A program made the position numbers and the translations under genes. A DNA stretch of 33,697 bases from a virus. The stretch lies in IMG/VR virus record IMGVR_UViG_3300030329_000852, positions 1 through 33,697 of that record. The stretch is one strand, 5' to 3'. The notes beneath the pieces are model-generated. The model did no database searches and was not told the DNA's origin. It worked only from the letters and a program-made list of their open reading frames with translations. Positions 134 through 6,375 of the stretch are shown here, piece by piece. The stretch's first letter is position 1; every line of letters begins with the position of its first letter.

Positions 134-276
134 AACTCTCTCTCAATAGGGTAGATTGCTATAAGCTTTTCTTTGTATTTGTTTTGCAGATATCCCTTTG
201 CCTTTAAATCATTAAATAGGCGATACATCTTGTACTGCACCCACTTCTTCCCTTGTATTGCTGCTATGTAGTCCAT
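130..276 (-). CDS. Hypothetical 48-aa basic protein
   Basis: The frame starts at ATG 276, preceded by a strong AAGGAGA Shine-Dalgarno (SD) sequence five bases upstream, and ends with TGA overlapping the ATG of the zinc-ribbon gene. It overlaps the 3' end of the adenine methyltransferase gene by 65 bases in another frame. The product begins MDYIAAIQGKKWVQYKMYRL and is rich in Lys and Tyr with no membrane segment. I recognise no family. The ribosome site and the coupled stop/start make it a likely real gene of the leftward operon despite the overlap. Confidence 0.65.
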   Translation of the reverse strand: MDYIAAIQGKKWVQYKMYRLFNDLKAKGYLQNKYKEKLIAIYPIEREL

Positions 277-793
277 ATAAATCTCCTTGTTTACTGTGTT
301 TATCCAATACCTGATACTGGCATTGCTCCGAATGTGGCCTATTCCATATCGCTATGGCTAATGCTCTATCCGGCTTGCCACCCTTCCCCAGATAGTCCTC
401 CCTCCATGTCAGGTTGTACCAATGGCTAGGTCTATGCCTGTTCCATTGCGCATACCCCCTTCCACAAGCCCATAAACGCTCTGGACATACCAATGCCATT
501 TTCTCCACCCCTATATCAAAGGCATGATCGATAAACTCACGTATGCTGTTAAAAGGTGGATTAGTAACCAAAGCCGGGGCTAGTGCTTCCTTATACCAGT
601 AAAAGTTTTGGTTCGTTCTTATATCCGTAGATATGACTTGCCTGTCATTGTTGCTTAAAGCACTACTGAAACGCATATCCCCTGCACAGGGTTCCCATAT
701 ACCTTTTACATCCCATTGCTCGTCTATGAGCCTTACAACAGTATCTACGATGCTATAAGGTGTTGGATAGAAGTCATGTTGGTTTCTTGTCAT
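212..793 (-). CDS. DNA N6-adenine-type methyltransferase
   Basis: 193 aa. The sequence shows an SAM-binding motif I (WEPCAGD, residues 33-39), an acidic residue after the next strand (STDI, residues 55-58) and the catalytic NPPF motif (residues 78-81), the signature of the amino-methyltransferase class that modifies adenine N6 (or cytosine N4). The N-terminal DFYPTP segment is common in phage methyltransferases of this size. The start has AAAGGAAAG upstream. It sits in the leftward early operon after the C5-methyltransferase and overlaps the 56-aa gene before it and the 48-aa gene after it. No restriction endonuclease lies nearby, so it is probably an orphan enzyme used to protect phage DNA or alter its regulation. 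Target sequence is not predictable here. Confidence 0.85.
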   Translation of the reverse strand: MTRNQHDFYPTPYSIVDTVVRLIDEQWDVKGIWEPCAGDMRFSSALSNNDRQVISTDIRTNQNFYWYKEALAPALVTNPPFNSIREFIDHAFDIGVEKMALVCPERLWACGRGYAQWNRHRPSHWYNLTWREDYLGKGGKPDRALAIAIWNRPHSEQCQYQVLDKHSKQGDLYGLHSSNTREEVGAVQDVSPI

Positions 794-944
794 TACTTTC
801 CTTTGTTAGTTCCATTGGATCTGCTTTGGTATTGATGGTGTATTTAAGATCGTTGTCTCTTATCCTGCAAAAGAGAAAGTCATTGAGTTCAGATAGCTTG
901 GGCTTTCTGTTGGCAACAAAAGTTATAACAATCTCATACTTCAT
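774..944 (-). CDS. Hypothetical 56-aa protein between the two methyltransferases
   Basis: ATG at 944 overlaps the last codons of the C5-methyltransferase (stop at 934) and is preceded by GAAGGAG about eight bases upstream; TGA at 776-774 lies 20 bases inside the adenine methyltransferase gene. The product begins MKYEIVITFV and is a mixed charged protein without recognisable motifs. Overlaps at both ends are typical of this operon. It covers what would otherwise be an unexplained 140-base gap. Function unknown. Confidence 0.65.
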   Translation of the reverse strand: MKYEIVITFVANRKPKLSELNDFLFCRIRDNDLKYTINTKADPMELTKESNDKKPT

Positions 945-2313
945 CCCATAGCTCCTTCATTGCCAATCCCAACTGATACACCACTTGAGGCACCACCGCA
1001 TTTCCAAGCATTTTCAATCTTTGCGTCCTTCCTGCTTGATTTGTTGTAACTCTTGGGATGTCAGGTTCGTCCAACCACGAGGAAACCCCATCAACCACTC
1101 CACCCAGTCTGCGTTCAATGCTCCCTTGTTGATATTGTTCTCTGTCTTTGCCACTCTGTGCATTAAGCTCTCCTGTCTCTTTGGATCTGCTAGTTTCTCT
1201 ATCGATCCGCTGTCCTTCCAATCCCTTGCCTTGGGTGTTGGGTACATCTGCACCATCCCTCTCAAGTTGCCCTTGGCTATGTCGTGTGGTATACCCTCTT
1301 TGTTTTTCTTCATATGTGCTGAATTCATGTCTGATGTCTTGGGAGTTGGCCACATTTTCTGTGCTACTCTCTCTTCTAACTTTGCTCCCAATGGCCCCTT
1401 TTTCTCTATTCTCTTCTGTATCGTGTTGGTGTTCTCGGCCATCGCTGCCGAAGCTCTGGGTGTTGGCCACATCTGTACTGCTCCTTGTAAATCTATTTGA
1501 TGCTTCCCCACTCTGTTTTCCCAATATTCTTTTGTTCTTTCGTGTCCGTTGTCTGTTGTTGGTGTTGGCCACATCTTTTGCTTCTCCTCGTAATCCACCG
1601 CATCCTGTAACCTCACTCCCCATCGTACTCCCTTCTTGTTCTTGCGGCTGTAATTCCCGTTCTGCTTCTCCACTCCCTCTGGTATTCCCCCTTGCTTCGC
1701 TGTCGGTGTTGGCCACATCTGTACTTTGTCTGCTAGATTGAGACTGTGGCTGCTCTGCTTGTCCTTCGTCATGCGTCTGCCTGTCTTTGTCAGTTCTGCG
1801 TTGGGATGTTCTATCTCCTGTGTTGTTGGAGTAGGCCACAATCCAGACACGCTCTCTTTTATGGTTGGCATCGACTGCTGAAGCTGGAATAACAAACGCC
1901 CTCGTGGAGTAGCCTTCACTCTCCAAGTCAAGTAACACTTCATCGAGGCCCAAGACAATGTGACCAGACACATTCTCGCAAAGGATGAGAGAGGGTCTTT
2001 TGTGTTTAATAATTTCAAACATTCTCGGCCAGAGGTGGCGGTCATCTTGCGTGCCTTTTTGCTTCCCGGCAACGGAGAAGGGTTGGCATGGGTAGCCCCC
2101 AACGATACAGTCGATTTCTCCGCAACTGTCTGGGTCAAAGGTTTTGACATCTCCCCAAACAGGGACATCTGGCCAATGTCTTTTAAGTATGTGTTGGCAG
2201 TAGGGGTCGTATTCAACGAACTGGACTGTTTCAAAGTGTCCTGTTGCTTCAAGCCCAAGGTCAATTCCTCCGATGCCTGCGAAGAGGGAAAGTGTTTTGA
2301 TTTTTTCATTCAC
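934..2313 (-). CDS. DNA cytosine-C5 methyltransferase (Dcm-like)
   Basis: 459 aa with C5-methyltransferase motifs in order: I (FAGIGG, 11-16), IV with the catalytic Cys (GGYPCQPFSVAG, Cys 76), VI (ENV, 113-115), VIII (RERVW, 153-157) and X (GNAVVPQ, about 437-443). Between VIII and X, where the target-recognition domain should be, lies about 270 aa of hydrophilic, disorder-like sequence with repeated VANT/VANS/VPNT units; the protein is about 100 aa longer than many phage relatives. The start is GTG at 2313, overlapping the TGA of the upstream gene (GTGA). The AAGG of the putative SD is only about four bases away, closer than ideal. A second frame (1014-2309) is open through nearly the whole gene. 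The role is methylation of cytosine in phage (or host) DNA; no partner nuclease is visible. Confidence 0.9.
   Translation of the reverse strand: MNEKIKTLSLFAGIGGIDLGLEATGHFETVQFVEYDPYCQHILKRHWPDVPVWGDVKTFDPDSCGEIDCIVGGYPCQPFSVAGKQKGTQDDRHLWPRMFEIIKHKRPSLILCENVSGHIVLGLDEVLLDLESEGYSTRAFVIPASAVDANHKRERVWIVAYSNNTGDRTSQRRTDKDRQTHDEGQAEQPQSQSSRQSTDVANTDSEARGNTRGSGEAERELQPQEQEGSTMGSEVTGCGGLRGEAKDVANTNNRQRTRKNKRILGKQSGEASNRFTRSSTDVANTQSFGSDGREHQHDTEENREKGAIGSKVRRESSTENVANSQDIRHEFSTYEEKQRGYTTRHSQGQLERDGADVPNTQGKGLEGQRIDRETSRSKETGELNAQSGKDREQYQQGSIERRLGGVVDGVSSWLDEPDIPRVTTNQAGRTQRLKMLGNAVVPQVVYQLGLAMKELWDEV
1014..2309 (-). CDS. Overprinted protein on the C5-methyltransferase gene (WPTP-repeat protein)
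   Basis: A 431-codon frame, +1 relative to the methyltransferase frame on the same strand. It starts at ATG 2309, directly after the TGA of the upstream gene, with AAGG about eight bases upstream (better spaced than for the methyltransferase GTG). It contains a segment LTWRVKATPRGRLLFQLQ-S-MP, six W/Y-P-T-P units, and near the end LNADWVEWLMGFPRGWT (398-414). From memory, proteins with this LTWK...WPTP...WVEWLMG pattern occur in phages and bacteria next to, or fused to, C5-methyltransferases, so the frame appears conserved rather than accidental. It may serve as the target-recognition or accessory part. It could be reached by its own start or by a +1 frameshift. Function is inferred; absence of stops over 431 codons in an AT-rich genome is the direct evidence. 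Confidence 0.65.
   Translation of the reverse strand: MKKSKHFPSSQASEELTLGLKQQDTLKQSSSLNTTPTANTYLKDIGQMSLFGEMSKPLTQTVAEKSTVSLGATHANPSPLPGSKKARKMTATSGRECLKLLNTKDPLSSFARMCLVTLSWASMKCYLTWRVKATPRGRLLFQLQQSMPTIKESVSGLWPTPTTQEIEHPNAELTKTGRRMTKDKQSSHSLNLADKVQMWPTPTAKQGGIPEGVEKQNGNYSRKNKKGVRWGVRLQDAVDYEEKQKMWPTPTTDNGHERTKEYWENRVGKHQIDLQGAVQMWPTPRASAAMAENTNTIQKRIEKKGPLGAKLEERVAQKMWPTPKTSDMNSAHMKKNKEGIPHDIAKGNLRGMVQMYPTPKARDWKDSGSIEKLADPKRQESLMHRVAKTENNINKGALNADWVEWLMGFPRGWTNLTSQELQQIKQEGRKD
1233..1841 (-). repeat. Six dispersed copies of a 15-bp WPTP/VANT-coding unit
   Basis: Near-identical 15-mers lie at 1233-1247, 1341-1355, 1458-1472, 1560-1574, 1704-1718 and 1827-1841 (plus-strand consensus GGGTGTTGGCCACAT). 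They are 102 to 144 bases apart, always a multiple of three. On the minus strand they encode (M/L)-(W/Y)-P-T-P in one frame and VANT-like residues in the other, so selection on either frame fixes both. Confidence 0.85.
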
Positions 2314-2561
2314 TTACCCTTCCCAAAATAAGGCTTGCGTTTCTTTGGTTTGTTCATCATGTCCTGTGCTTTCTTAACCAATAAATGTGTGTATCCATTA
2401 GCTGCTTTCTTTTGCGACATTTCTATATGGCCTTTGTCATAATCTTGTCTTGCTTGTATCACTACATCAGGCTCTATCTCTATCCACTTATCTGAATTAG
2501 GTCTCTTAAAAGCAATAGGATGCCATTGCATACTTTTTCGTAGTCTTTGATATTCACTCAT
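2310..2561 (-). CDS. Hypothetical protein, 83 aa
   Basis: Starts MSEYQRLRKSMQWHPIAFKR with an AAGGTGA ribosome site upstream. The product is charged and Lys-rich at the C-terminus (KPKKRKPYFGKGK), suggesting nucleic-acid contact, but no family is recognised. Its TGA overlaps the GTG of the C5-methyltransferase and immediately precedes the ATG of the overprinted frame, so translation of those two is probably coupled to this gene. It is the second gene of the leftward early operon. Confidence 0.7.
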   Translation of the reverse strand: MSEYQRLRKSMQWHPIAFKRPNSDKWIEIEPDVVIQARQDYDKGHIEMSQKKAANGYTHLLVKKAQDMMNKPKKRKPYFGKGK

Positions 2562-5221: not shown

Positions 5222-5363
5222 TATTCTTATAGGTAACAAGCTTTATAAGAAGCCTGTGAATAAAGAACAGTTGTTAAACCTTGCCCAGATGTTTCTGAGC
5301 AAGGCTATCAACTATGACTTTTATAAAGAGTTTGAATATACTAAAAATCCTTTTAAAGACTAA
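5193..5363 (+). CDS. Hypothetical protein, 56 aa (TTG start)
   Basis: The frame is open from 5136, but residues there overlap the excisionase-like gene completely. The best start is TTG 5193, seven bases after AAAGGAA, giving a product that begins (M)IWATETEISILIG. It has a short hydrophobic strand pattern and a charged C-terminus, no known motif. Its last 11 bases overlap the 3' end of the integrase on the other strand, so it is the final gene of the rightward operon. Confidence 0.5.
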   Translation: MIWATETEISILIGNKLYKKPVNKEQLLNLAQMFLSKAINYDFYKEFEYTKNPFKD

Positions 5364-6327
5364 ATGCTGCATCAAGTTTTGCTGCATCTTCTGCATTACG
5401 CTTCTTGTCATCTAACCAATGACCATAAACTTTTCTAGTCATCTCTATAGATCCATGACCCATGAAGCTAGTTACTTTGTGTAAGTCATCTCCGTAAGTT
5501 TGCAGTAAGATAGAAGCATAGAAGTGTCTAAGGTCATGCCAACGAATTACTTCTACACCTGCTTGCTTACAAGCTTTCTTTAATACATCTCTTAGCTTTT
5601 GACCAAAGATACGCTTGCCATTGTTATGAAATACTAAAGCTTCTTTATTTGGCACTCCTTGAGACATACGATATACTTTTAAATCTTTTGCAAGTGATTC
5701 GCTAAGAGGTACTTGTCTTTGACCATTCTTAGTTTTTGTAAAACCAACTGTATCAAACAACTGTACACATCGAGTAACAGATATAGTTTTGTTCTCAAAG
5801 TTTATATCTTTCCAACGTAGTTCTCTTTGCTCTCCTTGTCGCAAACCTGTGTGTGCTGCAAACTTTACAGCTAGTTTATATTCTGCATCAGTTTTGGATA
5901 AGATAGTTTGTATTCTATCCTTGCTAATTTTAATTGCTTTGTTATCTACATCAAAACTTGTATGCTGTCTCTTTGGAAACTTAACCATACCCAAAGCAAA
6001 AGAATGTGTATAACCGCTGTCTAGAAAAAAACTAAAGATACTACGAAAAGTATTGTAGTAGCCTATCATAGTTTTGTATGACAAACCAAAGACCATAATC
6101 TGATCTATTATCTGTGCAGCAATAGTAGCTGGTGTTCTTGTATCACTTACTAGATTTCTTATATTCCAATCAGCTATCTTCTTGCCATCAACTTTAAGTG
6201 CAAGAAACTTGTTTGCTACATTTATTTTATAATGTAATTCTTGTTTTAAAAATTCATGTCTATCAAATCTTTTGTTTTGATACTCTAACCATTTATCAGT
6301 AGCTAATCTTCCCAGTATTGTTTTCAT
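5353..6327 (-). CDS. int: Tyrosine recombinase (integrase)
   Basis: 324 aa from ATG 6327 (MKTILGRLATDKW), with GGAGG six bases upstream; earlier in-frame codons lie before the ribosome site. The catalytic set is complete: R163 (GLRQGEQ), Lys near 198-200 (TKTKNGQR), H264 and R267 (HDLRH), H291 (GHGSIEMT) and Y301 (VYGHW). The N-terminal half forms the SAM-like core-binding domain. It catalyses site-specific integration into, and with an excisionase removal from, the host chromosome. It is the last gene of the leftward late-gene array but has its own promoter with a 17-bp inverted repeat. No attachment site could be identified. Its presence implies a temperate lifestyle. Confidence 0.92.
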   Translation of the reverse strand: MKTILGRLATDKWLEYQNKRFDRHEFLKQELHYKINVANKFLALKVDGKKIADWNIRNLVSDTRTPATIAAQIIDQIMVFGLSYKTMIGYYNTFRSIFSFFLDSGYTHSFALGMVKFPKRQHTSFDVDNKAIKISKDRIQTILSKTDAEYKLAVKFAAHTGLRQGEQRELRWKDINFENKTISVTRCVQLFDTVGFTKTKNGQRQVPLSESLAKDLKVYRMSQGVPNKEALVFHNNGKRIFGQKLRDVLKKACKQAGVEVIRWHDLRHFYASILLQTYGDDLHKVTSFMGHGSIEMTRKVYGHWLDDKKRNAEDAAKLDAAFSL

Positions 6328-6346
6328 ATTAACCTCCATTAATACT

Positions 6347-6375
6347 AAAATAATACTGTTGACAGAAAATGTCAA
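6347..6375 (-). promoter_or_regulatory. Integrase promoter with 17-bp inverted-repeat operator
   Basis: On the minus strand TTGACA (6375-6370), 17 bases, TATTTT (6352-6347) precedes the integrase ATG by about 20 bases. The -35 is one arm of a perfect inverted repeat, TTGACA-GAAAA-TGTCAA (6359-6375). The same TTGACA-N5-TGTCAA architecture occurs at 31382-31398. A regulator bound here would cover the -35 and spacer, so this is a candidate operator controlling int. Confidence 0.6.

Follow-up and report, generated by a model that had tools for sequence, protein, structure and literature searches.

The window analysed here, a stretch of 33,697 nucleotides from an IMG/VR virus record, carries on its minus strand two long open reading frames that occupy nearly the same DNA. 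The longer one, referred to as M (frame alpha; positions 934 to 2313, minus strand), starts at a GTG and encodes 459 residues that carry motifs I-VIII and X and correspond to the large domain of a C5-cytosine methyltransferase. The other, W (frame beta; 1014 to 2309, minus strand), lies in the +1 frame relative to M, starts at an ATG 4 nt downstream of the M start and encodes 431 residues; it matches the family phrog_1008, has zero internal stops and exhibits codon-phase constraint. A putative ribosome-binding site read from the sequence, AAGG (2320 to 2323, minus strand), would be common to both frames, with 4 nt separating it from the GTG of M and 8 nt from the ATG of W; relatives display a similar layout. 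The W ATG is retained in close relatives, and codon 2 of M is variable there (N/H/Y). A first-pass annotation of this DNA had described the two overlapping same-strand frames with these boundaries and spacings, and our analysis agrees with it in both respects. It likewise confirms the six W/Y-P-T-P units in W (five WPTP and one YPTP), the segments TWRVKATPRGRLLFQLQ and LNADWVEWLMGFPRGWT in the same frame, and the DNA repeat, recurring at spacings of 102-144 nt, that underlies both VANT in M and WPTP in W.

The openness of W was compared with what its overlap with M would allow. Permuting synonymous codons inside the gene predicts 8.5 stops and the codon usage of the window itself predicts 29, whereas the 431 codons contain none. 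Across 5000 permutations the minimum stop count was 2 over the whole 434-codon stretch used, whose two observed stops are those bounding W. Other large genes of the window have +1 stop counts close to expectation, with a longest +1 opening of at most 86 codons. The depletion of stops, in these permutations as well as in the nested loci described below, rules out that W is a chance open reading frame.

Two further genes of the window are of note. The next gene on the 3' side (212 to 793, minus strand; 193 residues) probably encodes an adenine methyltransferase, as it matches phrog_799 ('DNA methyltransferase') at 1e-22 and contains an NPPF motif; judging from these sequences, the phage may carry two adjacent modification activities. 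An integrase (phrog_1, 1e-47) is encoded at 5353 to 6375 (minus strand), and the phage is therefore probably temperate.

Distribution of the methyltransferase motifs between the two frames

Frame M matches the Pfam family PF00145 (7e-45), phrog_363 (6e-70) and M.HhaI (3.6e-19). Alignment to M.HhaI places motif I (LSLFAGIGGIDLG; LSLFAGIGG) at 2254 to 2292, motif IV with the catalytic PCQ (GGYPCQPFS) at 2074 to 2100, motif VI (ENV) at 1969 to 1977 and motif VIII (HKRERVWIVA) at 1834 to 1863, the last overlapping the WPTP unit 1 region of W; motif X (MLGNAVVPQ) follows at 985 to 1011, 3' of the W stop (all minus strand). These are the five motifs that the first-pass annotation had named. As a member of PF00145, M thus possesses motifs I, IV, VI, VIII and X in the catalytic fold and lacks motif IX and a target-recognition region on the same chain; in none of the 173 nested loci does frame M contain a canonical-looking motif IX. 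The AlphaFold2 model of M points in the same direction. As far as about residue 160 its catalytic domain is confident, pLDDT exceeding 85 for the most part and dipping in places to near 70. The C-terminal helix carrying motif X is also confident, while residues of about 180-427, the VANT stretch, stay mostly at 34-54 and are without predicted structure. Superposition of the model on M.HhaI (VIA-align) gives a Z score of 23.9 over 222 residues with an rmsd of 3.0. As modelled, M is the large domain of HhaI with the small domain absent, and its VANT middle is predicted to be a disordered passenger.

Frame W matches the phrog_1008 profile, annotated as 'DNA methyltransferase', at 6.4e-41 and so belongs to this family, as do its relatives by profile score; it has no family in Pfam or NCBIfam. 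The phrog_1008 annotation is silent on the overprinting on a methyltransferase gene and on the absence of catalytic motifs. Near its C-terminus W carries the block LNADWVEWLMGFPRGWT (1068 to 1118, minus strand). In the relatives L047 and L061 a block of this type lies in the methyltransferase frame itself, immediately 5' of motif X, and PF00145 spans the open reading frames of both nearly end to end; in L061 HMMER aligned the block on M.HhaI LHPRECARVMGYP...GNSVV, a second domain that is weak alone yet in order and in frame with the strong first domain. Because L047 and L061 carry the block in the methyltransferase frame, where PF00145 aligns it, we identify LNADWVEWLMGFPRGWT by sequence comparison as the C5 methyltransferase motif IX that is missing from M. 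The first-pass annotation overlooked that this WVEWLMGFP block is motif IX itself; W therefore supplies a defined conserved motif in addition to a probable recognition region. The position of motif IX in the M frame of L047 and L061 also means that the division of labour is not universal.

A conserved N-terminal part of W, identified in alignments (approximately residues 64-156; 1842 to 2120, minus strand), lies over motifs IV-VIII of M. An AlphaFold2 model of W alone, calculated for the relative L006 from an input alignment that left out phage and plasmid records, is of low confidence (pLDDT 66) and shows two helices and a hairpin formed by TWRVKATPRGRLLFQLQ (the TW-K-TP-GRLLFQL segment); this hairpin is retained in stand-alone W genes. 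Such low confidence would be expected of a partner-dependent domain and equally of a poor model. A fold search with this model returned nothing below E 0.25, which says little because the model is weak. By sequence, W has no match at E up to 10 among solved structures, target-recognition domains included, and the split relative L018 gave weak unrelated matches only. The W reading frame of L018 contains a long WPTP-free insert between its WPTP units, in which helix-turn-helix families of Pfam are weakly hinted at (E 0.05, below the cut-off).

Change of the constrained frame along the gene

Mismatch rates were determined for each codon position of M over 10,055 locus pairs. At M positions 1, 2 and 3 they amount to 0.163, 0.098 and 0.459 over motifs I-IV and to 0.246, 0.153 and 0.341 over motifs IV-VIII. 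The corresponding values are 0.387, 0.143 and 0.105 in the WPTP repeats and 0.280, 0.109 and 0.159 around motif IX, and 0.120, 0.047 and 0.484 in the motif X part 3' of the W stop. Since position 3 of M is position 2 of W and position 1 of M is position 3 of W, it is W that is conserved in the repeats and at motif IX, and M elsewhere. Between the window and its 10 closest relatives the difference is more pronounced, with rates at M positions 1 and 3 of 0.184 and 0.018 in the repeats and of 0.024 and 0.36 in the motif X part 3' of the W stop. When each locus was used only once, giving 83 independent pairs, the informative pairs were W-like by 45:0 in the repeats and M-like by 41:0 in motif X.

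Stop codons were counted in the 173 nested loci as well. Over motifs IV-VIII the W frame contains 10 stops where 276 are expected. In the repeats the M frame contains 0 where 784 are expected, a figure that is partly conditioned because the loci had already been classed as open in M. M must therefore remain open across the repeats if motif X is to be reached, although its sequence can drift freely there. Both frames are conserved, with motif IX located in W; the repeats are under selection as W, and the parts on either side of them as M.

Exchange of WPTP units and spread of the nested arrangement

Read from the N-terminal side of W, the repeats consist of unit 1 (family A, 41 residues; 1716 to 1838), unit 2 (family B, 48 residues; 1572 to 1715), unit 3 (34 residues; 1470 to 1571), unit 4 (family D, 39 residues; 1353 to 1469), unit 5 (36 residues; 1245 to 1352) and the YPTP unit 6 (42 residues; 1119 to 1244), all on the minus strand. 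Across 569 units from 198 loci the median length is 41 residues, and the number of units per locus ranges from about 1 to 7. Similarity between units does not follow similarity between catalytic parts. Unit 1 of the window shares 78% identity with a unit of L100, although the catalytic parts of these two loci agree at only 48%; for unit 2 and its counterpart in L014 the figures are 72% for the units and 45% for the catalytic parts. Conversely, the catalytic parts of the window, L001, L002, L009, L006 and L005 are 96-99% identical, yet their unit sets differ: A B - D E E in the window, A F D E G in L001, A H E G in L002, I E G in L009, H in L006 and - F in L005. From these sequence comparisons, the WPTP units of about 41 residues behave as swappable cassettes, and the repeated VANT/WPTP DNA would be a plausible place for recombination between units.

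Relatives of W were found in viral contigs, annotated phages, plasmids and bacterial genomes of many phyla, where the scan of bacterial-genome contigs used a set of closely related sequences as query. Of the non-identical loci, 201 have both motif IX and a catalytic half; 198 of them encode motif IX in the +1 frame, and in 175 motif X is back in frame 0. This set was mostly found through W, and 95 non-identical loci fetched by their catalytic part alone provide a less biased check: all 95 keep evidence of W in the +1 frame, which is motif IX in most of them and the N-terminal part of W in the others. The homologues with a broken alternative frame that the first-pass annotation had held to speak against its reading are thus absent from this set, and its further counter-indication, that no database protein would match W, does not apply in view of phrog_1008 and of the nested genes annotated in the phages Diva and Lily. 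Canonical methyltransferases taken from some of the bacterial genomes that carry W relatives have 9-33 stops in the +1 frame.

Several variants depart from the nested layout. In L014, L018, L021, L064, L147, L106, L210 and L313 frame M ends soon after motif VIII and the W frame continues through motif IX into X. In a tree of the catalytic part such split forms arise several times within the nested clade, which suggests that the nested form was converted repeatedly and independently into a split resembling that of M.AquI. L202 and L060 possess a W gene that does not overlap a catalytic half, located just 3' of a methyltransferase (3429-4223 in L202 and 3441-3905 in L060) and with 13 and 6 stops, respectively, in the old M phase. 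The nested copy of L202 is without motif IX, and the separate W therefore probably serves it. In L060, a Paenibacillus bovis plasmid, the extra W stands beside an intact nested W and perhaps represents a second specificity for one catalytic subunit.

The nested pair was also encountered in chromosomes. In the E. coli KA0011 prophage (L430, 1610-2353) the nested W frame is intact and unannotated, the cytosine methyltransferase being the one gene of the pair that the record shows; a related stretch occurs in 66 of 5426 complete E. coli genomes. Roseovarius sp. OX638333 carries five copies of one nested pair at five chromosomal places (L160, L161, L163-L165), possibly a multiplied prophage or mobile element.

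Precedents, proposed mechanism and alternative readings

Multispecific C5 methyltransferases of phages carry several short recognition modules in a row on a single chain, and Trautner and colleagues reportedly described in 1996 such enzymes of Bacillus phages with tandem target-recognising domains (cited in PMC12707154). The units of W may be comparable modules: they stand in tandem and are exchanged between loci, show no match to solved target-recognition domains, and lie on a separate, overprinted frame.

The closest precedent for the window is M.EcoHK31I, whose small chain is encoded in another frame within the gene of the large chain. Specific for YGGCCR, it has motifs I-VIII and X on the large polypeptide and motif IX on the small one (PMC3404938), the same division as in the window, and its predicted target-recognition domain is reported on the large chain (PMC3404938). 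In the window, by comparison, the middle of the large chain is a predicted disordered passenger, and the repeats are under selection in the small frame; the accessible part of the published description, with which the comparison is made, does not mention tandem exchangeable WPTP units. M.AquI combines a catalytic chain with motifs I-VIII and a second chain with part of the variable region and motifs IX-X (PMC3404938). This division is common to the split members of the window's family listed above, and motifs IX and X lie together on the second chain in L014, L018, L064, L147, L106, L210 and L313. The window itself lacks this feature, as it keeps motif X on the catalytic chain and its two genes overlap almost wholly. 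In the Paenibacillus larvae phages Diva (gp50 in gp49) and Lily (gp63 in gp62) the genes are nested as in the window and the inner one is annotated as 'internal gene'. The Lily pair is listed as two cytosine methyltransferases (PMC6070908); the accessible text on these phages proposes neither a function nor a subunit relation for the nested genes. A text search, whose coverage lay outside most subscription journals, turned up no article that describes a methyltransferase gene nested in the way of W.

The large domain of M.HhaI comprises motifs I-VIII and X and its small domain the variable region and motif IX (PMC3404938), and we therefore propose that each of the two frames specifies one domain of a single enzyme. 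Split C5 methyltransferases, artificial or natural, reassemble if cut between motif VIII and the recognition region (PMC5944983, PMC3404938). With high probability, the locus would thus specify one C5-cytosine DNA methyltransferase as two associating polypeptides from one DNA, M being the catalytic and W the small domain. M would be translated into the large catalytic domain with motifs I-VIII, a long unstructured linker and motif X, and W, from the ribosome site common with M, into the small domain. The N-terminal part of W probably docks on M, the row of WPTP units of about 41 residues would take the position of the target-recognition region, and behind it comes motif IX. M and W would bind to form the active enzyme, methylating sites chosen by the W units and most likely marking the phage genome. 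W is most likely the target-recognition domain, and its six units most likely serve as alternative or additional modules of recognition that phages exchange by recombination. On balance, we favour the fuller picture in which the W units are target-recognition cassettes gained, lost or swapped by phages, M, kept open to motif X, tolerates the changes as a disordered linker, and the frames correspond to two structural domains of one enzyme. The first-pass annotation had suggested an old, conserved overlap whose second product supplies recognition; this proposal withstood every test run, while translation of both frames, their association and the reading of DNA by the WPTP units are what we infer.

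The features of the locus can be read in other ways. The possibility that W is a non-coding shadow, open and similar merely through conservation of the M protein, has next to no probability in our judgement. Some W similarity over motifs IV-VIII must indeed derive from M; in the repeats, however, position 3 of M is the least and position 1 the most variable, the opposite of an M-coded region, the depletion of stops exceeds what the M protein forces, and W persists without M overlap. The phase inversion refutes the shadow, barring an alignment artefact in the 83 independent pairs. In programmed frameshifting, a +1 shift after motif VIII into the WPTP units and motif IX and a shift back before motif X would yield one chain, and the order of I-VIII in M, WPTP and IX in W and X in M matches the product of such a double shift. 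Frameshifting is nevertheless very unlikely: it requires two opposite shifts in each member, its product needs neither the opening of W for about 100 codons 5' of the repeats (10 stops versus 276 expected) nor that of M through the repeats (0 versus 784), an ATG for W is preserved close to where M starts, the own stop of W lies between IX and X, and the separate W genes of L202 and L060 speak against it. The single +1 shift that the first-pass annotation had offered as an alternative is disfavoured by the return of motif X to frame 0, by the needless openness of both frames and by the few loci with a separate W.

It is also conceivable that M alone is an active methyltransferase and W an independent accessory, for example a regulator or counter-defence protein. 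M does keep the catalytic motifs and the cofactor motif X, but it is without motif IX or an ordered recognition domain, whereas W carries motif IX and in several relatives (L014, L018, L064, L106, L147, L210 and L313) is fused in frame to motif X; this reading is highly improbable. Finally, both subunits could be real and the WPTP units serve as spacers, multimerisation or DNA-scanning repeats, with specificity residing in the N-terminal hairpin of W or in M. The variation in unit number from about 1 to 7, the lack of a unit match to known target-recognition domains and the location predicted for that domain in M.EcoHK31I would be in line with this. We regard it as unlikely, as the units lie between motifs VIII and IX, the usual site of the target-recognition domain in C5 methyltransferases, and because they are under tight constraint in W and move as modules among distant backbones, a pattern more in keeping with specificity than with spacing; the stretch of M opposite the units, moreover, is predicted to be disordered.

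Two-polypeptide C5 methyltransferases as such are already known, with M.EcoHK31I, where motif IX alone is on the small chain, the nearest. Novelty appears to lie in how broad and how deep the arrangement is, in the switch of the selected frame where the domains meet, in an M middle reduced to a passenger and in exchangeable tandem units located in an overprinted frame. An oddity of few two-polypeptide methyltransferases thereby turns into a common and ancient design, in which two genes overlap nearly completely and their products would be the two lobes of one enzyme. This nested design spans phages, plasmids and bacteria of many phyla, including E. coli prophages, where in the strain looked at just one of the two genes is annotated, and it offers a clean natural case of overprinting where the frame under selection changes at definite positions in the gene. 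Should the units be recognition cassettes, the methylation specificity of phages could be read from them as a code, and split methyltransferases that can be re-targeted would be readily available.
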